Positions 1,214 to 24,117 of a stretch of DNA of 52,728 nt are shown here, piece after piece; the first letter of the stretch is position 1; each line of letters begins with the position of its first letter. This stretch comes from a bacterium (GTDB lineage Bacteria; Patescibacteriota; Minisyncoccia; Phycocordibacterales; JABMNX01). The stretch lies in assembly GCA_002687905.1 (NCBI GenBank), contig NZBM01000009.1:1-52728 (forward strand), written 5' to 3'. The position numbers and the translations under genes are program-made. The notes under the pieces are model-generated. The model saw only the letters and a program-made list of their open reading frames with translations. It made no database searches and had not been told where the DNA came from.

Positions 1214-1903
1214 ATGGATCTAGCGATCACTGTAGTCGTTGTCTTTGTTGTAGCTCAGTTGCTTACGCTTATCGCTGCCGCGGCAGTATGCACACTGGTG
1301 AGTGTGGTGAGCAGAAAATCCGCAGCTAACAAAGTAGCTAACAAAGCTATATTTTCAGACATATCGTATTATTGGCTACTTAGGCCTCTTGCGTATATAC
1401 CGCTTACAGTTTTTCTGGTTGTAATGTTAGATTCTGCAGGGTGGACAGGAGGGGGATTATTGACGTCAGCGCCAATTGTTGTACAGATAATTTTGTTGTA
1501 TCTCTTGTTTGAGTTTGTTGCATATTGGGTACATAGAATTTTTCATGGAAATCGTCTATTGTACAGATTCCACATGCCACACCATAGGATTAAGCGTTTG
1601 GAGTGGAGTAATGGACGCCAAGACCACTTTGTATTTGAAATACTACTGTTAGTAGTATTTGTGTCTTTGGGTCTTTTGCTTGGAGTATCACCTCTTACTT
1701 TCGTCACTACTATAATTGTGTGGTATATCTTACTTTCCCTCTCGCATCACAATGTCGCCTTTTCATATGGTCCTCTTGGGAAAGTACTTCTCTCTTCGAG
1801 CGCTCATGCGGTACATCATTTTGGCTGTACTTTTGAAAACTCCAAGAACTTTGGAGTGACGCTTACACTTTTTGATCGTCTTTTTGGAACATATGCCAAG
1901 TAA
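1214..1903 (+). CDS. Fatty acid hydroxylase / sterol desaturase family membrane protein
   Basis: This 229-residue protein has several hydrophobic helices and the three histidine clusters of the membrane di-iron hydroxylase superfamily: HRIFH, HMPHH and HAVHH, spaced as in sterol desaturase/carotene hydroxylase relatives. Such enzymes use O2 to hydroxylate lipids or isoprenoids in the membrane. The next gene overlaps it and encodes a UbiA prenyltransferase, which hints at an isoprenoid-type substrate; that is inference. The ATG at 1214 is chosen because a -10 box ends 8 bases upstream. Length is normal for the family. Confidence 0.85.
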   Translation: MDLAITVVVVFVVAQLLTLIAAAAVCTLVSVVSRKSAANKVANKAIFSDISYYWLLRPLAYIPLTVFLVVMLDSAGWTGGGLLTSAPIVVQIILLYLLFEFVAYWVHRIFHGNRLLYRFHMPHHRIKRLEWSNGRQDHFVFEILLLVVFVSLGLLLGVSPLTFVTTIIVWYILLSLSHHNVAFSYGPLGKVLLSSSAHAVHHFGCTFENSKNFGVTLTLFDRLFGTYAK

Positions 1904-2717
1904 CTTTAAATGGGGTGCGGGTATAGCTATGCATCGATTAGTTAAGGTATGTAACGCAGTTCGATTACATGTAGCATTGGTGTATGCCCTTATCGCAATC
2001 ACGTTCGTCTGGGCCGAAGGCATACGCACTCAGGAACTTGTCGCAGTTCTTTGTTTTACATCGCTTTTATCTGCGTCATATTTACTTAATAGAATAACGG
2101 ATGTTGACAGTGATAGGTTGTCGCAGCCAGGTGAGGAGCTTGAAGGGAATCTAGTATTGTTCTCTGTGGTACTGCTTGCGTTTGTGCCGCTTGCTTTTCT
2201 TGTAATGTTCTCTCTTCCTGTATTGCCGTACATAACATTCATAATGGTGGGAGCTTTTTACAGCCTGCCTGCAATTTCGGGAAAAAGTTTAAGGGAGATC
2301 TTGATACTTAAGAACTTGTACGCTGCCGCAGCCTGGTACGTATCTTTTGCCTTGCTTGAATCGGTATACGCGGGTGCGACTTCTTTTTTGGAATCTCTGT
2401 TGTCTTCACCGCATGTTTTTGCCCTGGTGTTGGCTTACGAGATTATGTGGGACATCCGGGATGCGGATGCCGATCGGGCTGCTGGCATTTCAACGATACC
2501 GAACACGTTCGGGATGGTCACGACACGGCTGTCGTTACTTACGTTGTTTGCATGGGTATTGTGGATGCGCGACTTTGATGTGTCGGATCCAATCTCAGTT
2601 GCTACTGTCGTGTTAATACCCCTTTCGCTTTTGGCAACACCAAAAACTCCTCGTTGGGTCTTTCACTTAACTGTATATATTATGTTGGCGGCTGTTGCCG
2701 TGTTGGTTTTATGGTAG
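1893..2717 (+). CDS. UbiA-family prenyltransferase
   Basis: This is a multi-helix membrane protein of about 274 residues with both Asp-rich motifs of the UbiA superfamily: NRITDVDSD early and DIRDADADRAAG in the second half. These bind Mg-diphosphate of a prenyl donor. The family transfers prenyl chains to quinone precursors, tetrapyrroles or lipid glycerol ethers; the acceptor cannot be told here. The ATG at 1893 overlaps the upstream gene by 11 bases; ATG 1929 is an equally possible start. The stop overlaps the start of the next gene, so the three genes are probably one transcript. Confidence 0.85.
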   Translation: MPSNFKWGAGIAMHRLVKVCNAVRLHVALVYALIAITFVWAEGIRTQELVAVLCFTSLLSASYLLNRITDVDSDRLSQPGEELEGNLVLFSVVLLAFVPLAFLVMFSLPVLPYITFIMVGAFYSLPAISGKSLREILILKNLYAAAAWYVSFALLESVYAGATSFLESLLSSPHVFALVLAYEIMWDIRDADADRAAGISTIPNTFGMVTTRLSLLTLFAWVLWMRDFDVSDPISVATVVLIPLSLLATPKTPRWVFHLTVYIMLAAVAVLVLW

Positions 2718-3526
2718 TGCTCTCTCCTTTGGTGTTCACACTTCTTTTGTTGCCGCCGCTTGCCGCAGTTTTGTTGTTACCAATTCCAGCGATTGTGGGG
2801 CTTTTTATTGTTCTCGGGCAGGGTCATTTCGTTGGTTCGTATGTGTATCAATTCTTTGCTGGCAGACTAGGGTGGTGGCGCGTTGTTCTTTACGCATTAC
2901 TTTTTATTTTGCTGTGGGCGGTGTTTATAAGCACTAAGAGTTTTGACGCGTTACTTGCCTTGACTGCTGTCGTATTTACAGCTCATTTTACGTGGGACTC
3001 TTCTCATATACTCGGCAATAGGGAATTGCTTCCGGCGGTTATCACAAGGCTTCCTATTTTCCTACTTTTTTCCGGTTTCGTTGTGGAGAAGGTCTATGTA
3101 GTGCCGCTGGTGCCTTTTATCGTGCCGCTCGTTGTATTGTTGCTTGGCATCTACATCTTTTGTGTTGCTTTGAAGGTTTTTCATTATGATATAAGCGATT
3201 TTTTGTTTATGGGAGGGGCACTTGGTTTTCTGGGGTTAATCAGCGTATATCCGCTTCTTTCGGCGTGGATCCCTTTTGGTTTTCTGATTCTTTATCACTA
3301 TTTGCAATGGTACGTATTTTACTGGAAGAGGTGTGCCTCAGTTGGCAAAGCAAGAGTACGAAAATATATAAGAAATATGCTTATTGTGAACGTGGTGGTT
3401 ATCTGCTTATTTTTGTTTTGGAAGTTTTATGAAATTGGTGATATGTTACGGTATTTTTTTGTGCCGGAATATTTTTACCTTTGGACACTTACTCACATAG
3501 TCAGTAGTGTGAGATTGAGATATTAA
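2711..3526 (+). CDS. Polytopic membrane protein with scattered His motifs, unknown
   Basis: This 271-residue, very hydrophobic protein has about eight or nine likely membrane helices. His residues sit near helix ends: GQGHF, FTAHFTWDSSH, KVFHYD, LILYHYLQW and LTHIVSS. The pattern resembles membrane metalloenzymes working on isoprenoids (Brp/Blh carotene oxygenases carry comparable His motifs), but no firm family match can be made by eye. The start ATG overlaps the stop of the UbiA gene (ATGGTAG), showing translational coupling. I do not assign a function. Confidence 0.75.
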   Translation: MVVLSPLVFTLLLLPPLAAVLLLPIPAIVGLFIVLGQGHFVGSYVYQFFAGRLGWWRVVLYALLFILLWAVFISTKSFDALLALTAVVFTAHFTWDSSHILGNRELLPAVITRLPIFLLFSGFVVEKVYVVPLVPFIVPLVVLLLGIYIFCVALKVFHYDISDFLFMGGALGFLGLISVYPLLSAWIPFGFLILYHYLQWYVFYWKRCASVGKARVRKYIRNMLIVNVVVICLFLFWKFYEIGDMLRYFFVPEYFYLWTLTHIVSSVRLRY

Positions 3527-3570
3527 TCGCGAGGCGCACGTGCTTGCCAGCGCAATCTTGATTTACAAGA

Positions 3571-3579
3571 TGATATGAT
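3571..3579 (+). promoter_or_regulatory. Extended -10 promoter (TGATATGAT)
   Basis: TGA plus TATGAT ends 9 bases before ATG 3588. There is no Shine-Dalgarno, consistent with a leaderless or nearly leaderless transcript. Confidence 0.5.
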
Positions 3580-3587
3580 AGGCATGT

Positions 3588-4139
3588 ATGTTATACACGG
3601 GAAAAGGCGACAAAGGAGAGACAAAACTCTTTGGAGGTGGCAAGAAAGTTTCAAAAGCTTCTGTTGTTTCAGAGGCACTAGGGACGCTTGATGAGCTCAA
3701 TTCTTTTCTTGGACTTTGCAAGGTTGAAGCTGAAAAGTACGACATTTCAGTTTCTGGGCAGAAGGTTGAGAACATTTTGCACGATGTGCAGAAAAATCTG
3801 TTTATTGTCCAAGCTGAAACTGCCGGCGCGGACAAAGCTGTTGAGGAGAGTAAGTTAAGGAGGGCAGAATTATTGATAAACGATATTGAAAGTGAACTCC
3901 CACCGATAAAGGCGTTCTTTATTTCAGGCGGCACCGAGCTTGCAGCGCGAATTGATGTGGCGCGAACGCTTGCACGACGCGCCGAGAGGCGCGTCGTGGG
4001 GGTGGTAGAGAGCAAAGAGAGAAAATTGGGAAAGTATAGCTTGGCATATATGAACAGACTCTCCTCATTACTCTATACACTGGCTCGACTAAGTAACCAT
4101 AAATCTGGTATAAGTGAAGAGTCTCCAGACTATAAGTAA
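3588..4139 (+). CDS. ATP:cob(I)alamin adenosyltransferase, PduO type
   Basis: The 183-residue protein begins with the family signature YTGKGDKGETKLFGG, which binds ATP. LDELNSFLG and ISGGTELAARIDVAR (conserved Arg residues of the active site) follow, and it ends with a helix YMNRLSSLLYTLAR. It adenosylates cob(I)alamin to make coenzyme B12. No cobalamin synthesis gene is in the window, so the substrate is probably scavenged. A likely user in such reduced genomes is a B12-dependent class II ribonucleotide reductase (inference). It is a single gene, followed by strong hairpins. Confidence 0.93.
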   Translation: MLYTGKGDKGETKLFGGGKKVSKASVVSEALGTLDELNSFLGLCKVEAEKYDISVSGQKVENILHDVQKNLFIVQAETAGADKAVEESKLRRAELLINDIESELPPIKAFFISGGTELAARIDVARTLARRAERRVVGVVESKERKLGKYSLAYMNRLSSLLYTLARLSNHKSGISEESPDYK

Positions 4140-4150
4140 TTTGGAGGCGC

Positions 4151-4201
4151 CAAATTTTGGCTCTGTTGAGCCAAAATTTGCGACCGAATCGGTTCGGTCG
4201 C
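4151..4201 (+). terminator. Two back-to-back perfect hairpins
   Basis: Hairpin one pairs CAAATTTTGGCTC (4151-4163) with 4168-4180 around TGTT. Hairpin two pairs GCGACCGAA (4180-4188) with 4193-4201 around TCGG and is followed by AAAAATA. They lie between the adenosyltransferase gene and tRNA-His. The same two-hairpin layout occurs at 32488-32538. Confidence 0.65.
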
Positions 4202-4211
4202 AAAAATAGAT

Positions 4212-4285
4212 GGCGGTTGTAGCTCAGCTGGTAGAGCACTCGGTTGTGGTCCGAGAGGTCACGGGTTCGATCCCCGTCAATCGCC
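4212..4285 (+). tRNA. tRNA-His (GTG)
   Basis: A full cloverleaf: D stem GCTC/GAGC, anticodon stem CTCGG/CCGAG with loop TTGTGGT (anticodon GTG) and T loop TTCGATC. The extra G(-1) at 4212 faces C73 at 4285, as required for histidine tRNA. The acceptor has one G-T pair. CCA is not fully encoded (CA follows C74). The start codon of the next gene lies two bases after the tRNA end. Confidence 0.95.
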
Positions 4286-4286
4286 C

Positions 4287-4904
4287 ATGGTAGGAAATTT
4301 CAAAAAAGGTGAATGGTTTTTAGCACTTTTTAATCTTCTCTATATTCTTGGTTTTGGGGGATATTACATCTCCATAAAAAATTTCGAGTTCCTCTGGTAC
4401 GTTGCAGTGCTCGTCTTCTTTTTCCTACTTGTAGTGCTTACGTTAAAAAAGAGCAAATTTGATTACACAATTCTCTGGGGACTTTCACTCTGGGGGTTTC
4501 TCCATATGGCAGGGGGCGGGGTGCCGGTAGGAGATGGAGTGCTTTATGGATACCAATTACTTTCGCTAGTAGATAATGGCGGGGGCTTCTTTATTCTCAA
4601 ATTTGATCAATTAGTGCACGCATTTGGCTTCGGAGTGGCAACACTTTTTATATATCATCTACTAAAACCGTATCTAAATGAAAAAACTAATTGGGGAGCC
4701 GTCTATGCAATTCTCATTGCCGCTGGTTCAGGCCTAGGAGCTCTTAATGAAATAGTTGAGTTTGTTGCGGTTGTATCATTCCCAGAGACAGGAGTCGGCG
4801 GTTATGCAAATACTGCTCTTGATCTGGTGTTTAACATAATTGGCGCCACTCTCGCCGTGATTTTCATTCACGTCCGCCGGCTAAAAACGGCAAGAGGTAA
4901 TTAG
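4287..4904 (+). CDS. DUF2238 (YjdF-like) membrane protein
   Basis: The 205-residue protein has six or seven predicted membrane helices and the conserved polar signature of the DUF2238/YjdF group: FLHMAGG, then LKFDQLVHAFGFG and ALNEIVEF. The role is unknown. The ATG lies two bases behind the tRNA-His body, so tRNA 3' processing would create an almost leaderless mRNA. No Shine-Dalgarno can exist in the usual place because that space is the tRNA acceptor stem. Confidence 0.85.
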   Translation: MVGNFKKGEWFLALFNLLYILGFGGYYISIKNFEFLWYVAVLVFFFLLVVLTLKKSKFDYTILWGLSLWGFLHMAGGGVPVGDGVLYGYQLLSLVDNGGGFFILKFDQLVHAFGFGVATLFIYHLLKPYLNEKTNWGAVYAILIAAGSGLGALNEIVEFVAVVSFPETGVGGYANTALDLVFNIIGATLAVIFIHVRRLKTARGN

Positions 4905-4906
4905 CC

Positions 4907-4936
4907 AACGTGGGCTCGATTCCCGGTAGGCACCCA
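4907..4936 (+). pseudogene. Possible tRNA 3'-end remnant
   Basis: TCGATTCCCGG resembles a T loop and its 3' stem strand, and GTAGGCACCCA resembles an acceptor 3' strand with C73 and CCA. No matching 5' half is present. It may be the scar of a rearrangement involving a tRNA-His-like gene. The evidence is weak. Confidence 0.3.
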
Positions 4937-4940
4937 AGAA

Positions 4941-5022
4941 ATTGCGGGGGCGACGTATCCTGGTATGCTAATAAGCGAGCGGGCGAGGTAGCTGAAAAAC
5001 TTACCTCTTGGTTCGATAGGTA
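4941..5022 (+). pseudogene. Decayed copy of the 3' end of the alpha/beta hydrolase gene
   Basis: TCCTGGTATGCTAAT and AAAACTTACCTCTTGG recur at 5860-5934 inside the intact hydrolase gene. Read with one frameshift, the remnant gives a family-like end: Tyr-Pro-Gly-Met-Leu, then EVAEKLTSWFDR. It is the tail of a lost paralogue lying just upstream of the surviving gene. Confidence 0.7.
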
Positions 5023-5107
5023 GAAGTTCAAGATTCAAAGCGGAGCTTCGGTTCTGGAAATGGAACTAGTAATTGAAGCCAGAAAGGGTTAGTAATTTTA
5101 AGTTAAC

Positions 5108-5116
5108 TGATATAAT
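5108..5116 (+). promoter_or_regulatory. Extended -10 promoter (TGATATAAT)
   Basis: A consensus TATAAT with an upstream TGA ends 9 bases before ATG 5125. No Shine-Dalgarno is present. Confidence 0.7.
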
Positions 5117-5124
5117 TTTCCTCA

Positions 5125-5937
5125 ATGCAAATTAAAGACCACAAAGTTGGACCGAATAATTTATTCGTACGGGAAGCAATTCCCGACACTAAGAGCTTTG
5201 ACTCCCCGCTTGTGCTTGTGCACGGCTCTTTTGGAGGCGCGGAGATGTGGAAGATGGTTGCGCACGGTCTTTCTGAGATGGGATTTCATGCCTACGCTCT
5301 TTCACTTCGTGGGCATATGCCAAATGAGAAAATTAATCTTGGCGAGGTAGGTATGAGCGACTATGTGGAGGATATAAAGCAGGTAATAGAAGCTCTTAAG
5401 CTAGAGAGTCCAGTTGTGGTGGGCCACAGTATGGCAGGGCTCCTCGTACTAATGTATACAAAAGACAATCCTGTCAAAGCGGCTGTATTAATTGATCCGA
5501 GTACATCTAGTGAAGTACAAAGAGAGCCAGACGAGGTAAAAATTGCTGAGATTCCCGATGTATACAATGTGATGCAGGCAGGCATGCCAATGGATCCAAT
5601 GGAAGTAATGAAAGCACTTCCTGATGTGTCACAAGAAGTTTTGATGCAGATGAAAGATATGCTCGGAGAAGAATCTGGCAAGGCAAGGCGTGACAGAAAG
5701 CGTGGTATATCAGTTCCTGAAGGGTCAATTAGCGCACCGCTACTAATTATGGGTGCCGAGCTTGGGGATTCTCTCCCTTTTGGAATTTCACTTGAATCAT
5801 CAAGAAATATGGCAGAGTACTACAACGCCGATTTCTTTGAGGTGAAAGGTGCTACACATCCTGGTATGCTAATGGGCGAGCATTCAGGTAAAGTAGTCGC
5901 AAAACTTACCTCTTGGCTCAAGGGATTAGAAATTTAA
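5125..5937 (+). CDS. Alpha/beta hydrolase
   Basis: The 270-residue protein has the family layout: oxyanion motif LVHGSFGG near residue 33, nucleophile elbow GHSMAG, and the catalytic His in the late motif GATHPGM. No signal peptide is seen, so it is cytoplasmic. The substrate is unknown; esterase, lipase or haloperoxidase-like activities are all possible. A decayed copy of its 3' end lies just upstream, so the locus once held two paralogues. The following small gene begins 9 bases after the stop and is probably cotranscribed. Confidence 0.88.
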   Translation: MQIKDHKVGPNNLFVREAIPDTKSFDSPLVLVHGSFGGAEMWKMVAHGLSEMGFHAYALSLRGHMPNEKINLGEVGMSDYVEDIKQVIEALKLESPVVVGHSMAGLLVLMYTKDNPVKAAVLIDPSTSSEVQREPDEVKIAEIPDVYNVMQAGMPMDPMEVMKALPDVSQEVLMQMKDMLGEESGKARRDRKRGISVPEGSISAPLLIMGAELGDSLPFGISLESSRNMAEYYNADFFEVKGATHPGMLMGEHSGKVVAKLTSWLKGLEI

Positions 5938-5946
5938 GAAAATAAT

Positions 5947-6444
5947 ATGGATAGTAATAAGTTGACGTGGGCGGTCCTTATACTAGTTGTTCTGGTGGGA
6001 GGGTATTTGTTTCTAAATAATGAACGCACCGATGAAGAAGATTTAAAAGATGAGGTGGCGGAGATGGCAATGGAGGATTCTCATGAACATGAAGATGGTG
6101 AGGGACATAGTCACGAAGAGTTGGTTGTGGACGGAGAAGCTCCGACTGTTGATTTTACAATTGAGAAAGATTCAGTCGGCGGATGGAATGTTCACATCTT
6201 GACGGAGAATTTTGTATTTACTCCCGAGAATGTAAACGAAGAATATGTTGACGGAGAAGGACATGCGCACATTTACGTGGATGGAGAAAAAATAGCGCGA
6301 GTATATAACGATTGGTACCACATCGGCGCGCTTGAGGATGGAGAAAGAGAGGTTCGTGTTGAGCTAAACTCAAATAACCATAACCCATATGGAGAAGGCG
6401 GTGTGGTAGTAGAGAAGACAATCATACTTGAGGTAGTAAAATAA
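5947..6444 (+). CDS. Membrane-anchored His/Asp/Glu-rich extracytoplasmic protein
   Basis: The 165-residue protein has one N-terminal membrane helix (residues 8-24). An acidic, His-rich stretch (DSHEHEDGEGHSHEE) follows, then a beta-rich domain with GEGHAHIYVDG and NDWYHIG. The His clusters suggest metal binding outside the membrane, possibly copper or zinc; this is inference. No enzyme family is recognised with confidence. It follows the hydrolase gene closely. The terminator at 6477-6510 ends the unit. Confidence 0.75.
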   Translation: MDSNKLTWAVLILVVLVGGYLFLNNERTDEEDLKDEVAEMAMEDSHEHEDGEGHSHEELVVDGEAPTVDFTIEKDSVGGWNVHILTENFVFTPENVNEEYVDGEGHAHIYVDGEKIARVYNDWYHIGALEDGEREVRVELNSNNHNPYGEGGVVVEKTIILEVVK

Positions 6445-6476
6445 AGCCTCTAAAGAGCCCTGCCTGCCGGCAGGCG

Positions 6477-6510
6477 CAAAAATCGACTCAATTGATTGAG
6501 TCGATTTTTG
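6477..6510 (+). terminator. Convergent terminator with TCGACTCAA-type stem
   Basis: A long stem, AAAAATCGACTCAAT pairing with ATTGAGTCGATTTTT around TG, lies between two converging genes and has T runs for both strands. The stem core recurs at 32510-32531 and 47891-47909. A GC palindrome, GCCTGCCGGCAGGC, lies just before it near 6462-6475. Confidence 0.8.
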
Positions 6511-6512
6511 TT

Positions 6513-6821
6513 TTAACCGTATTGAATTATCTGGACTATTACCACAAAAAGTACAATTGCAGATATACCAGTGGTGATAATAAGTGGTTTGTTTTTTATA
6601 TAAAGACCGTAGAAAAACCACGCTACAACGGTTCCAAACGCTATCGCTTGAGTTGCAAGCGATATTCCTTCAACTGTTCCTGTCTCAAAAATCTTTAAAA
6701 CTTGAGGGATGCTTGAAAGTGATGCTACGATACCAACCGAAGTCATTAGAGAGTTAACAATTCTTCGCTTCTTTCTTCTTTTTTCTTTCTCGCACTCGTT
6801 CAGGTTTTGGGGATTGTACAT
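6513..6821 (-). CDS. SemiSWEET / PQ-loop transporter
   Basis: The 102-residue protein has three membrane helices with the PQ motif (ASLSSIPQVLKIF) in the first and a following EGISLATQ segment, the half-size layout of bacterial SemiSWEETs. These work as dimers and let sugars or other small metabolites cross the membrane. The N-terminal 22 residues are unusually basic (KEKRRKKRR) and cytoplasmic. It is transcribed away from arsR, so the 85-base gap 6822-6905 must hold promoters for both directions. Confidence 0.85.
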   Translation of the reverse strand: MYNPQNLNECEKEKRRKKRRIVNSLMTSVGIVASLSSIPQVLKIFETGTVEGISLATQAIAFGTVVAWFFYGLYIKNKPLIITTGISAIVLFVVIVQIIQYG

Positions 6822-6905
6822 ATAAAAATCGTATCACGGAGATTTTAAGTGGGTATTTCTGTATCCACATGTAACCTTTCCTCTAGGCAGTCGTTGTATT
6901 AATAT

Positions 6906-7229
6906 ATGAGCATATATTCATATATGAATACGGTAGATATTACAGACGTAGATAGGATTGTACGCACAACCTCTGCTTTTCGCCTGCTTTCTGACCCAAC
7001 ACGCTTTAAAATTTTGTGTATTTTAAGCAGGGCACCCAATGGAATGTGCGTTTATGAAATTGCTGAAGCGGTTGGTATCACACATTCTGCCGCTTCACAT
7101 CAACTGAGTAGGCTTGAAGACAAGAAGATAGTGAAGTGTTTTAGGCATGGTCAATCTGCGTGTTATGAATTGACCAATACTCTTTTCGTAAAGGACTTAA
7201 TAACGGTTATGAAATCTTTTAAGAAATAA
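6906..7229 (+). CDS. ArsR-family winged-helix regulator
   Basis: The 107-residue protein matches ArsR repressors: FRLLSDPTRFKILCIL in helix 1-2, then the recognition helix ITHSAASHQLSRLEDKKIV and the wing FRHGQSACYEL. Cysteines lie in helix 2, before the recognition helix and in the wing (Cys in MCVYE, KCFRH, SACYE). They could sense metal or thiol redox state; no complete known metal site is recognised. ATG 6924 is an alternative start. The gene heads a unit with thiol-redox proteins, only 3 bases before the next start. Confidence 0.9.
   Translation: MSIYSYMNTVDITDVDRIVRTTSAFRLLSDPTRFKILCILSRAPNGMCVYEIAEAVGITHSAASHQLSRLEDKKIVKCFRHGQSACYELTNTLFVKDLITVMKSFKK
6915..6930. promoter_or_regulatory. 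16-bp palindromic operator at the arsR start
   Basis: TATTCATATATGAATA is a perfect 16-bp palindrome lying over the first codons of arsR. ArsR/SmtB repressors bind AT-rich inverted repeats of the ATTCA/TGAAT type, so autoregulation is likely. If ATG 6924 is the start, the operator spans the start codon. Confidence 0.6.
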
Positions 7230-7232
7230 TGT

Positions 7233-8294
7233 ATGCAAAATACAACCACAGTTACTTTAATATTGCTATTTATCGTGGCAGCAGGATTCTTTTTTCTTAC
7301 AAGAGGGGATAAATTTGAGCTTCCGGAGGGGGAAACCACTTCACTTGAAGAGAAAGAAGAAAAGAAGGAGAATGTAGATATTATGAAAGAAGTAGAAAGT
7401 TCAGGAGACAAAACTGCTCGTGTTTCTGAAAGAGAAGTTTTTGTTACAGACGGAGTTAGGCACTCAATCCCACTAAACGAAATACTTTCAGGAGGTCCTC
7501 CAAAAGATGGAATTCCTTCAATCTATGAGCCAAAATTTATTTCAATCAAAGAGGCCAGAGATTTTTTGGATGATAATAGTCCTGGGTTGGGTGTAAAAAT
7601 TGGTGAGGTTTCGAGGTTTTATCCATATCAGATACTTGTATGGCATGAGCTTGTTAATGACACATTAAATGGGGAGGATATTTTGGTTTCTTATTGTCCA
7701 CTTTGTCTTACAGGTGTCGTATTTGATAGAAGAGTTGACAGCAAAGCAGTTGAATTTGGCGTTTCCGGTAAGCTTTGGAAGTCTAATCTTTTAATGTATG
7801 ACCGAACTGGAGATTCTGAGACTGAGTCGTTATGGTCACAAGTCCTTGGTGAAGGAGTGCTTGGTCCAGAAACTGGCACAAAACTAAAGATTATTCCATC
7901 TGACGCTGTTAGGTTTTCTGATTGGATAAAGGAGAATCCCAACACAGAGGTTCTTTCAAAAGACACAGGTGCTACTAGAATTTATGGAGGCGATCCTTAC
8001 GGAGATTATTACACGAACGATACTGTATCGTTCGGCGCAAGCTTTAGCGATACACGACTTCATCAAAAAGAGTTTGTGCTAGGAATTGAGGTCGCTGGAG
8101 AGTTTAAGGCATACCACACAGATGCTCTAAAAGAGGGAATCACAATTGACAGTTTTAGAGGAGAGACTATAGAGATTGTTAAAGATAAGTTTGGCGGGGT
8201 CCGAATGTCGATAGACGGGGAAGATCTTCCGTACATTGGCGGATTTTGGTTTTCGTGGTTAGCAGTGCACCCAGATACAGAATTATTTAAGTAA
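7233..8294 (+). CDS. DUF3179 domain protein, membrane-anchored
   Basis: The 353-residue protein starts with a membrane helix and an acidic linker. From about residue 70 it carries the DUF3179 domain, with the hallmark SYCPLCLTGVVFDR and, after it, LLMYDRTGDSETESLWSQ. The CPLC pair is the likely functional centre. The domain's activity is not established. Its place between an ArsR regulator and two thioredoxin-fold proteins suggests the Cys pair is kept reduced or is oxidised by them (inference). Length is normal. Confidence 0.88.
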   Translation: MQNTTTVTLILLFIVAAGFFFLTRGDKFELPEGETTSLEEKEEKKENVDIMKEVESSGDKTARVSEREVFVTDGVRHSIPLNEILSGGPPKDGIPSIYEPKFISIKEARDFLDDNSPGLGVKIGEVSRFYPYQILVWHELVNDTLNGEDILVSYCPLCLTGVVFDRRVDSKAVEFGVSGKLWKSNLLMYDRTGDSETESLWSQVLGEGVLGPETGTKLKIIPSDAVRFSDWIKENPNTEVLSKDTGATRIYGGDPYGDYYTNDTVSFGASFSDTRLHQKEFVLGIEVAGEFKAYHTDALKEGITIDSFRGETIEIVKDKFGGVRMSIDGEDLPYIGGFWFSWLAVHPDTELFK

Positions 8295-20611: not shown

Positions 20612-20620
20612 TGCTAGGAT
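20612..20620 (+). promoter_or_regulatory. Extended -10 promoter of ileS (TGCTAGGAT)
   Basis: TGC plus TAGGAT lies 15 bases before ATG 20635, giving a very short leader without a Shine-Dalgarno. Confidence 0.5.
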
Positions 20621-20634
20621 TGCTGATATTGCTT

Positions 20635-23600
20635 ATGGATAAGAAAGCGGAAAAAGAGGATTTAACAAAGAGTGAAACGGCTAAAAGAGAGGAAGAAGTC
20701 CTTAGTTTTTGGGATAAAAATAAGATTTTTGAGAAATCAGAAGAAAAGGATTCTCCAAAAGGAGAGTTCGTTTTTTATGACGGACCTCCGTTTGCAACAG
20801 GGCTTCCTCACTACGGACATATTCTTGCTGGGACAATTAAAGATGCAATTCCAAGATATAAGACAATGCGTGGATATAGCGTACGTAGACGTTGGGGTTG
20901 GGACTGTCATGGACTTCCACTTGAGGCAATTATAGAAAGTGAGCTTGGTATAAAAACTAAAAAAGATATTGAAGAGTTGGGAGTTGGAAAATTTAATAGT
21001 GCTGCGCGAGATGCAGTACTTCGCTATGCTGACGATTGGAAAAAGATTGTGCCAAGACTTGGTAGGTGGGTTGATATGGAGCGTGACTATAAGACGATGG
21101 ATGCTAATTATACGGAGAGTGTCTGGTGGGTATTTAATGAGCTTCACAAAAAAGGACTTGTATATAAAGGATACAAGGTTTTGTATTTGAGCCCACTTCT
21201 TGGAACCGAGCTTTCAAACTTTGAAGTATCACAAAATTATCAAGACATAGAAGACGTAGCTGTAACAGTAAAACTACCGCTTACGGACAAACCAAACACA
21301 TCAATTTTGGTTTGGACCACGACCGCTTGGACTTTGCCGGGAAATATGGCCGCCGCAGTCAATAAAGATTTTGATTACGTGAAGATAAAAATGCGTGATG
21401 AGTTCTTGGTTTTGGCAAAGGAGCGTTTAGATACTCTGGACGATGAATACGAAGTGGTAGATGAGTTTAAAGGAAGTGTACTTGTAGGAGAAAGCTACGA
21501 GCCACCTTTTGCATACTTTAAAGACAAGGAAATTGAAGGAAAAGAAAACGCTTGGAAAATTTATCATGCTCCGTATGTCACGCTTGAAGAGGGAACAGGA
21601 ATAGTTCATCTTGCACCAGCCTATGGTGCGGAAGACATGGAACTGGCGGAAGAAAGTAATGTGCCGGTGATCCACCATGTAAATAAAGATGGAACTTTTA
21701 AGGAGGAAGTGCGCGATTTCAGGGGAATGCAGGCAAAACCAAAAGGGGATCATCAGAGAACAGATGCACTAATTGCTGATAATTTAAAGGCCAGAGGGCT
21801 TTTGTTTAAAAAAGAGACCGTAATGCACTCCTATCCTCACTGCTGGCGGACTGACGCTCCTCTTCTTAACTACGCTATGGATTCATGGTTTGTGAGAGTT
21901 ATAGATTTTAAAGACAAGCTTGTTTCGGAAAACAATAAAGTTAAGTGGGTTCCAAAAGAGGTTGGTTCAGGAAGATTTGGGAATTGGCTTGAGAATGCTC
22001 GCGACTGGTCTGTAAGTAGAAGTAGATATTGGGGAGCCCCTCTTCCAGTTTGGCAAAATAAGAAAACCGGAGAGTATAAAGTTATTGGCTCGGTTGAGGA
22101 ACTAAAACGCTATACAAAGAAGAAAAATAATAATTATTTTGTAATGCGACACGGTGAGGCAGAGAGTAATGCAAAAAATATTTTAAGTTCAGATCCAAAG
22201 GACCCTGTTCATTTAACTGAAAATGGAAAAGAACAGGTAAAAAAAGCAGCAGAGTCACTTAAAGAGAAAAATATTTCAGTGATTTATCATTCACCCCTAC
22301 TTCGGGCAAAAGAAACAGCAGAATTAATTGCAAAAGAGATTGGTATATCAAAAGAAAAACTTGTTATAGATAAAAGGATTGCGGAAATGGACTTTGGAGA
22401 GTTTTCAGGGGGTCCTATACAAAAATATTATGACTTCTTTGCGTCTGTGAAGGATCAGTTTAATAAAAAAGTTCCTGGAGGAGAAAATTTAATGGAAGTT
22501 AAAAGAAGAAGTGGGGAATTCATATATGACATTGATTCAAAACACGAAAATGAGACGATCCTTGTGGTAACACATGATGATACGGCGTGGATGCTTGCTT
22601 CTGCTTGCGGATGTTTAGTGGGTGACAGGATTAGGGAGCTTGAGACTGATGGTCAATTTATTAAGATTGGAGAGATTCAGGAGACACACTTTGAACCGCT
22701 TCCGCATAATGAGAATTATGAACTAGATTTACACCGTCCTTACATAGATGAAATAGAATTAATTGACAGCGATGGAAGTAGATTAAAAAGGATTCCGGAT
22801 GTATTTGATTGTTGGTTTGAATCTGGCTCAATGCCTTACGGACAATTTCATTATCCATTTGAAAACACAAAAACTTTTGAGCCAAAAAGTGGCTTATTTA
22901 GAGGCTCTCGTGGATTTCCAGCCGATTTTATAGCTGAGAGTATTGATCAGACGAGAGGTTGGTTTTATTCACTAATTGTTCTTGGAGTTGGGCTTTTTGG
23001 AAAGAGTCCATACAAAAATGTAATTACAAACGGATTGGTATTGGCTGAAGACGGTAAAAAGATGAGCAAACGTTTACAGAATTACCCTGACCCGCTTTAT
23101 GTTGCTAATAAGTACGGCGCTGATTCCATGCGCTATTACTTACTCTCATCGTCGATTATGAGAGGAGAAGATTTAAATTTCTCTGAACGTGGTGTTGATG
23201 AGATTTTGAAGAAAGTTATATTGCGACTTTCAAACGTCCACTCTTTCTTTGCTCTTTATGATAAGGGGAATTCATCAAAACTTAATACGAAAGATGTCTT
23301 AGATAGATGGATTCTAACTAGATTAAATCAACTTATAAAAATTAGCACTGATGGGTTAGAAAACTATGAGATTGATAAGGCAACAAGACCAATTGCGGAT
23401 TTCATAGAGGATTTATCTGTTTGGTACTTGAGGCGCTCACGCGACAGATTCAAAGGTGATGATGAGGAAGATAAAAATGCAGCGCTTGGGATGACAAAAC
23501 ACGTTTTGTTTGAGCTATCAAAGACAATGGCGCCGTTTATGCCATTTTATTCTGAGCATCTGTATCAAAAACTGCGAGGAAAAAACGATCCGGAGAGTGT

Positions 23601-24117
23601 GCATCTTTCAAGTTGGCCAGAAGGTGGAAATGTGGAAGAGCAACTACTCAAAGATATGAAAGAAGTACGAAGTATTGTATCTTCCTCACTTGAACTGCGT
23701 TCATCTGCGGATATAAAGGTTAGGCAACCACTCCAGACTTTATTTGTTCCAGATGATAGTGTTGCAACCAAGAAAGAGTATGCGTCGCTAATAAAAGATG
23801 AAGTTAATGTAAAAGAAGTTAAAGGACATAAGGGAGAAATTAAATTGGACACAGACATAAGCAAAGAGCTAAAAGAAGAGGGATTAGTTCGCGAATTTTT
23901 ACGCCATGTTCAGGAGTTGCGTAAAAAGGAGGGACTTACTCCCGAAGACAGGCCAGAACTTACGGTAGAAGCGGAGGGCAGGATGAAAGAGGTTCTTGAA
24001 GAGAAAAGTAATGATGTCAAAAAAATGGCTAATCTGGGCGATTTTCTGCTAAGAGAAACCAGTGGAGAAGAAATAAGTCTTGAGGGAAATAAGGTTATAC
24101 TTTCTCTTAAGAAGTAA
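20635..24117 (+). CDS. ileS: Isoleucyl-tRNA synthetase with inserted histidine phosphatase domain
   Basis: This 1160-residue class I synthetase charges tRNA-Ile. HIGH-type motif HYGH is at 59-62, DCHGLPLE follows, and KMSK is at 809-812. The synthetase reading stops after GSVEELKRY near residue 494 and resumes at ELDLHRPYIDEI near 700. Between them lies a complete histidine phosphatase (phosphoglycerate-mutase-like) domain: RHGE at 505-508, SPLLRAKETA with Arg557, AEMDFGEFSG with Glu584, PGGEN, and VTHDD with His647. All usual catalytic positions are kept. DVFDCWFESGSMPYG resumes the normal synthetase core. The phosphatase substrate is unknown. recO overlaps the stop codon. Confidence 0.96.
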   Translation: MDKKAEKEDLTKSETAKREEEVLSFWDKNKIFEKSEEKDSPKGEFVFYDGPPFATGLPHYGHILAGTIKDAIPRYKTMRGYSVRRRWGWDCHGLPLEAIIESELGIKTKKDIEELGVGKFNSAARDAVLRYADDWKKIVPRLGRWVDMERDYKTMDANYTESVWWVFNELHKKGLVYKGYKVLYLSPLLGTELSNFEVSQNYQDIEDVAVTVKLPLTDKPNTSILVWTTTAWTLPGNMAAAVNKDFDYVKIKMRDEFLVLAKERLDTLDDEYEVVDEFKGSVLVGESYEPPFAYFKDKEIEGKENAWKIYHAPYVTLEEGTGIVHLAPAYGAEDMELAEESNVPVIHHVNKDGTFKEEVRDFRGMQAKPKGDHQRTDALIADNLKARGLLFKKETVMHSYPHCWRTDAPLLNYAMDSWFVRVIDFKDKLVSENNKVKWVPKEVGSGRFGNWLENARDWSVSRSRYWGAPLPVWQNKKTGEYKVIGSVEELKRYTKKKNNNYFVMRHGEAESNAKNILSSDPKDPVHLTENGKEQVKKAAESLKEKNISVIYHSPLLRAKETAELIAKEIGISKEKLVIDKRIAEMDFGEFSGGPIQKYYDFFASVKDQFNKKVPGGENLMEVKRRSGEFIYDIDSKHENETILVVTHDDTAWMLASACGCLVGDRIRELETDGQFIKIGEIQETHFEPLPHNENYELDLHRPYIDEIELIDSDGSRLKRIPDVFDCWFESGSMPYGQFHYPFENTKTFEPKSGLFRGSRGFPADFIAESIDQTRGWFYSLIVLGVGLFGKSPYKNVITNGLVLAEDGKKMSKRLQNYPDPLYVANKYGADSMRYYLLSSSIMRGEDLNFSERGVDEILKKVILRLSNVHSFFALYDKGNSSKLNTKDVLDRWILTRLNQLIKISTDGLENYEIDKATRPIADFIEDLSVWYLRRSRDRFKGDDEEDKNAALGMTKHVLFELSKTMAPFMPFYSEHLYQKLRGKNDPESVHLSSWPEGGNVEEQLLKDMKEVRSIVSSSLELRSSADIKVRQPLQTLFVPDDSVATKKEYASLIKDEVNVKEVKGHKGEIKLDTDISKELKEEGLVREFLRHVQELRKKEGLTPEDRPELTVEAEGRMKEVLEEKSNDVKKMANLGDFLLRETSGEEISLEGNKVILSLKK

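Follow-up and report, generated by a model that had tools for sequence, protein, structure and literature searches.

The ileS gene and its insert

The gene described here raises the question of what a phosphatase domain is doing inside an isoleucyl-tRNA synthetase (IleRS), and whether the two enzymes take part in one chemistry or share little besides a polypeptide. It lies on a contig of 52,728 nucleotides, the whole stretch of DNA that was analysed (the window), from a member of the Patescibacteria whose genome comprises 591,505 bases in 18 contigs and is 99.7% complete. The ileS frame is unbroken from an ATG at 20635 to a stop codon ending at 24117 on the + strand and encodes 1160 amino acids. 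A TTG at 20620 is an alternative upstream start, but the ATG was judged more plausible, and the residue numbers of a preliminary description of this locus are exact when counted from it. The features of the gene are the following.

20635..24117, + strand: ileS, type-2 IleRS with embedded histidine phosphatase (TIGR00392; predicted structure, TM-score 0.84 normalised to 8c8u)
20809..20820, + strand: HYGH, class I signature (residues 59-62; direct reading)
21313..21345, + strand: WTTTAWTLPGN, CP1 editing domain (227-237), intact; W227, T228, T229, T230 and W232 invariant in 68 sequences
22099..22719, + strand: histidine-phosphatase insert with linkers (about residues 489-695), between WGAPLPVW and DLHRPYID, which are joined directly in genome G405
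22138..22656, + strand: PF00300 His_Phos_1 match (profile search of the own genome, 7.2e-36)
22147..22158, + strand: R505 H506 G507 E508, the phospho-accepting His and its Arg (R and H in 159 of 159 domains)
22303..22305, + strand: R557, second catalytic Arg (159 of 159)
22384..22386, + strand: E584, catalytic acid (158 of 159; Asp in one)
22573..22575, + strand: H647, distal catalytic His (159 of 159)
22726..22755, + strand: DLHRPYIDEI (698-707), where the synthetase sequence resumes
23059..23073, + strand: KMSKR signature (809-813; direct reading)
23302..23739, + strand: Anticodon_1 domain (Pfam)
23839..24111, + strand: DUF5915, IleRS C-terminal domain (Pfam)

The protein scores 901 bits against the ileS model TIGR00392 (cut-off 621), and its Pfam matches run in the order tRNA-synt_1, split by His_Phos_1, then Anticodon_1 and DUF5915. 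The frame is continuous and both synthetase signatures, HYGH at 59-62 and KMSKR at 809-813, are intact, as the preliminary description had stated. Since this is the sole IleRS match in its own genome (E<=1e-25), the enzyme is presumably functional. A second PF00300 gene of the same genome is free-standing and lies on another contig.

A full domain of phosphoglycerate-mutase type, about 200 residues long, had also been claimed, and the Pfam domain search bore this out: His_Phos_1 (PF00300) matches residues 507-676 of the predicted protein P0001, which are 502-671 from the ATG, and scores 118 bits where the cut-off is 21.7 (6.4e-34), far above chance. The catalytic positions RHGE 505-508, Arg557, Glu584 and His647 are all present as named. 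Membership of histidine phosphatase branch 1 is indicated by the profile score above its cut-off, by the catalytic RH/R/E/H set and by a predicted alpha/beta fold like that of phosphoglycerate mutase (PGM). Scores against narrower models were under their cut-offs: 94 bits versus 225 for dPGM_arch, likewise for the other PGM models listed, 80 versus 162.9 for the alpha-ribazole phosphatase CobC (TIGR03162) and 46 versus 74.5 for the phosphohistidine phosphatase SixA (TIGR00249). Taken together, a complete phosphatase domain with live-looking catalysis in a complete IleRS is strongly supported. Where the phosphatase had been called live, the catalytic set does look live and is intact in sequence; activity itself may be expected from that set rather than read off it.

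Predicted structure and nearest known enzymes

The AlphaFold2 model of the full-length protein (68 sequences) reached a mean pLDDT of 92.0 and a pTM of 0.85, linkers included, and that of the phosphatase domain alone a pLDDT of 96.5 and a pTM of 0.93. In a Foldseek search with the full-length model, 8c8v, 8c9d, 8c8u and 8wnd (type 2 and yeast) rank ahead of type 1 entries; on its predicted structure, the window IleRS is of type 2, not type 1. It shares its signatures, CP1 editing motif and anticodon domain with known type-2 enzymes, such as Priestia megaterium IleRS2 (8c8u) and Thermus thermophilus IleRS (1ile), but whereas these join the CP2 (connective-peptide-2) region directly, about 200 phosphatase residues stand there in the window protein. 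How CP1, CP2 and the editing domain are arranged in IleRS2 is described in PMC10485003; judging from its position in the sequence, the insert would sit in the CP2 region.

The solved folds nearest to the domain model are PspA (4ij6, a Hydrogenobacter phosphoserine phosphatase), PhoE (1h2e) and a riboflavin-pathway phosphatase (9mmh), and a profile search with the domain places PhoE (1ebb/1h2e) first, at 2e-30. The PhoE/PspA branch-1 phosphatases (1h2e, 4ij5) share the fold (TM 0.72-0.74) and the RH/N/R/E/H active site; they are free-standing, however, while the window phosphatase is embedded in a synthetase. PFK-2/FBPase-2, found among the PDB matches, is also a branch-1 histidine phosphatase joined to a second enzyme, but there the two are fused end-to-end and have opposed chemistry, unlike the insertion into a tRNA synthetase seen here. 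That the domain supplies the glycolytic phosphoglycerate mutase is suggested by dPGM being among its closest families and by PGM structures among its fold matches, but the dPGM_arch score stands against it. Moreover, neither enolase nor iPGM was found in the own genome or in five other family members searched, all of which keep the fused domain, so that a glycolytic role is highly improbable and excluded in practice.

Distribution of the insert in the Patescibacteria

A listing of genomes with the same architecture covered 60 at order level, the window's own together with those most closely related to it, and in 54 of them PF00300 falls in a frame no shorter than 735 aa. The frames fetched from those 54 are IleRS, with ValRS in addition in G417 and G395. 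The insert is also encoded on 80 named contigs, a sample collected by a query with the DLHRPYID flank and so biased to that motif. These belong to Nomura-, Zambryski-, Kaiser-, Taylor-, Adler-, Yonath-, Colwell- and Yanofskybacteria, and further ones to Harrison-, Nealson-, Niyogi-, Wolfe-, Wildermuth- and Doudnabacteria and to unnamed Parcubacteria/Paceibacterota. The named loci are from Patescibacteria or unclassified 'bacterium' MAGs, except L158, labelled Spirochaetia in its record. Of 145 genomes sampled evenly across the phylum, 121 had a match to IleRS, and at least 21 of those have His_Phos inside the IleRS (long frames fetched). The remaining IleRS of this sample are mostly frames of about 930-1080 aa, and the ones fetched are without the insert.

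Because 54 of the 60 order-level genomes have PF00300 in so long a frame and the 80 named contigs encode the insert, it is no assembly artefact. Nothing was found in favour of a chimera, whose probability is negligible given that the same junctions recur in over 100 genomes of independent projects. Neither of the findings that the preliminary description had named as damaging was made: the same insert occurs in more than 100 independent genomes, not in this assembly alone, and all 159 domains retain the catalytic His.

Retention is thus class-wide, with some clean absences. The insert is missing from the IleRS (968-980 aa) of six relatives of the same order or class. G405 (L222) has a clean empty site, reading SRSRYWGAPLPVWRNEETGETVVVGSTQELKAHSASTIAEQADLHRPNID, and the C-terminal part of its IleRS core is 65% identical to that of the window, yet without insert.

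Further sites, ValRS and other inserted domains

In other lineages there are two or three His_Phos domains per IleRS, at up to four sites. In family f83 and others, the second domain separates the DLHK..VDD segment from DCWFESG; in L074 it follows KMSKS. At L088 (G243; 2667-7382), a single IleRS frame of 1572 aa has three His_Phos_1 at three sites, two with the full catalytic set and the third with Asp in place of the Glu. In ValRS, His_Phos occupies the homologous site in L065, L090, L092, L064 and L069 and a position further on in L086; ValRS acquired the domain independently, at sites homologous to those of IleRS.

Each part comes from a known family, and the insertion of an enzyme into IleRS has a precedent in NCBIfam NF040702 (ileS_w_GNAT), although the inserted enzyme is there a GNAT instead of a phosphatase; the window protein scores 285 against that model (cut-off 1999) and has no GNAT match. 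An IleRS with GNAT between DCWFESG and KMSKS and His_Phos after KMSKS is encoded at L109 (G046; 1638-5990, reverse strand). The 1277-aa ValRS frame of L064 (G229; 1327-5157) has inserted HAD_2, Ser_hydrolase and His_Phos_1 matches, and the ValRS of L069 a Ser_hydrolase match as well as His_Phos. In family f33 (L112, L115, L118, L119), the phosphatase site of IleRS is taken by an unrelated insertion, about 130 aa long and with no Pfam match. The phylum also has His_Phos fusions of other kinds (L093, L095, L096), where the phosphatase lies C-terminally, behind a 2-hydroxyacid dehydrogenase, an MFS transporter and a VTT-domain membrane protein.

The class I signature itself varies among these enzymes. 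HxGS replaces HxGH (e.g. HYGS, HAGS) in the IleRS of L055, L059, L104, L150, L152, L162, L169, L170, L186 and L192; all ten carry the phosphatase insert, and HxGS differs from the published GXHH swap. The GXHH signature (EGPPTANG-PGIHH) is common in patescibacterial IleRS (L146, L149, L151, L154 and about 40 further relatives).

Catalytic conservation and selection

In the 159 fused domains, gathered by similarity to phosphatases so that a wholly decayed insert could escape, the first Arg, the phospho-accepting His, the second Arg and the last His are invariant, and the Glu is kept in 158, with Asp in one. The long IleRS frames fetched include none with a wholly decayed insert. In 68 full-length fused IleRS (mean identity 39%), the invariant columns include R505, H506, R557, E584 and H647, and the invariant columns of 63 named site-A domains (R17, H18, L39, G43, R69, E96, R137 and H159, domain numbering) belong mainly to the active site. 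In L186, L192, L194, L195 and L198 little is left of the stretch from the catalytic Glu to the GGE segment, so that these inserts resemble minimal lid-less members of the histidine phosphatase family, and the catalytic set is retained.

dN/dS was measured on the two pairs that are close enough. For L079/L087 it was 0.030/0.526 (~0.06) in the insert and 0.038/0.470 (~0.08) in the core, and for L062/L063 it was 0.125/1.23 (~0.10) and 0.122/1.326 (~0.09) in the inserts and 0.185/1.665 (~0.11) in the core. The insert is therefore under purifying selection for function as strong as that on the synthetase. A catalytically dead structural insert that merely enlarges the CP2 region would agree with the unrelated insert that f33 has at the same site, but it is very unlikely, given that conservation within the insert is highest at the catalytic residues and that even the trimmed-lid variants keep them.

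Evolution of the insert

In a tree of the domains, weakly resolved with 54 of 129 inner branches open, the site-A inserts of the window's class cluster together, the f83 site-A group stands apart, the f83 second-site group is placed among free-standing genes and the ValRS inserts amount to five changes. On the core tree, presence and absence of the insert require about 20 changes, at least 16 of them forced by starred branches. The tree of the IleRS N-half separates two backbone types with one change, whereas on the insert tree the backbone type switches 22 times, and starred branches force no fewer than 7 of these switches; the insert therefore probably moved between backbones or came from a common pool. 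The C-half tree gives seven changes of backbone type, so recombination may reach beyond the insert. By these sequence trees, the insert does not appear to track the IleRS backbone.

Possible roles of the embedded phosphatase

The preliminary description proposed linked chemistry, such as hydrolysis of a by-product, proofreading or signalling. In such a coupling the phosphatase would act on something that the synthetase makes or binds (AMP, PPi, a by-product derived from the adenylate or of Ap4A type, or a tRNA end that carries a phosphate) and so drive the reaction, proofread or signal charging. Among the long fused frames fetched the insert is essentially confined to IleRS and ValRS, mostly at one homologous site; it is kept in genomes with very few genes, and its linkers are predicted with high confidence. 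We nevertheless consider the proposal unlikely: the CP1 editing signatures are still present, a normal pyrophosphatase (PF00719) exists in the own family, and some close relatives with an otherwise normal IleRS lack the insert. Insertion also after KMSKS argues against a single fixed geometry. A substitute for pyrophosphatase was rejected on account of PF00719, which is missing from some members of the order; its presence in the own family makes PPi removal by the insert unneeded there. Replacement of editing was rejected since the TTT motif is intact; a stricter GTG-VVH-D editing pattern is uninformative, as only about half of both groups match it.

GNAT and serine-peptidase enzymes destroy microcin-C-type toxins. 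By analogy, the inserted enzymes might destroy phosphorylated or aminoacyl-nucleotide-type inhibitors of branched-chain synthetases. They are of modifying-enzyme type (His_Phos, HAD_2, Ser_hydrolase, GNAT), the insert is patchy, repeatedly gained and apparently exchanged, and many relatives have the GXHH motif, which is reported to give mupirocin hyper-resistance (PMC10485003). Such on-board detoxification seems rather improbable, as class-wide retention is steadier than that of typical resistance traits, the insert is present with both HXGH and GXHH backbones and there is no PADLOC match. A tie of the insert to the mupirocin-resistant motif was rejected on the same co-occurrence with both motifs, and a defence system on the PADLOC result.

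It is most likely (a probability of roughly 0.6) that the insert is a catalytically competent PhoE/PspA-like phosphomonoesterase module, carried by an otherwise normal type-2 IleRS and acting largely on its own. That the domain was taken up repeatedly and at different sites, and that some relatives cleanly lack it, suggests an enzyme that is carried and autonomous; the several sites, the occurrence in ValRS and the movement between two IleRS backbones fit such an enzyme at least as well as coupled chemistry. The standard two-step histidine-phosphatase route would be the most likely: H506 would take the phosphoryl group, with the phosphate held by R505, R557 and H647, E584 would serve as acid/base, and water would release Pi. 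The substrate would be a small phosphorylated metabolite, hydrolysed independently of aminoacylation, and the synthetase an abundant, always-expressed carrier.

Counting against a carried enzyme, the near-exclusive association with IleRS and ValRS, mostly at one homologous site, exceeds what an arbitrary carrier would predict, and this strong preference leaves room for a substrate connected with the two synthetases. A bolder and tentative proposal, which we think doubtful as a whole, is that the class Ia branched-chain synthetases of Patescibacteria are self-cleaning multienzymes: time and again they would have gained active hydrolases as modules in homologous surface loops (one to three histidine phosphatases and in some cases HAD, serine-hydrolase-like or GNAT domains), with the phosphatase clearing a phospho-compound specific to IleRS/ValRS function.

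The open-access papers searched gave no account of a phosphatase fused into IleRS, of the breadth and multiplicity of this fusion or of its recurrence in ValRS, and prior mention elsewhere is possible. Across much of a large bacterial group with stripped-down genomes, a second enzyme has been selectively kept within an essential synthetase, and the same type of module has entered ValRS independently and one IleRS up to three times. This pattern points either to an unrecognised need for a phosphatase beside isoleucine and valine charging, or to an unusual way in which minimal genomes keep enzymes.
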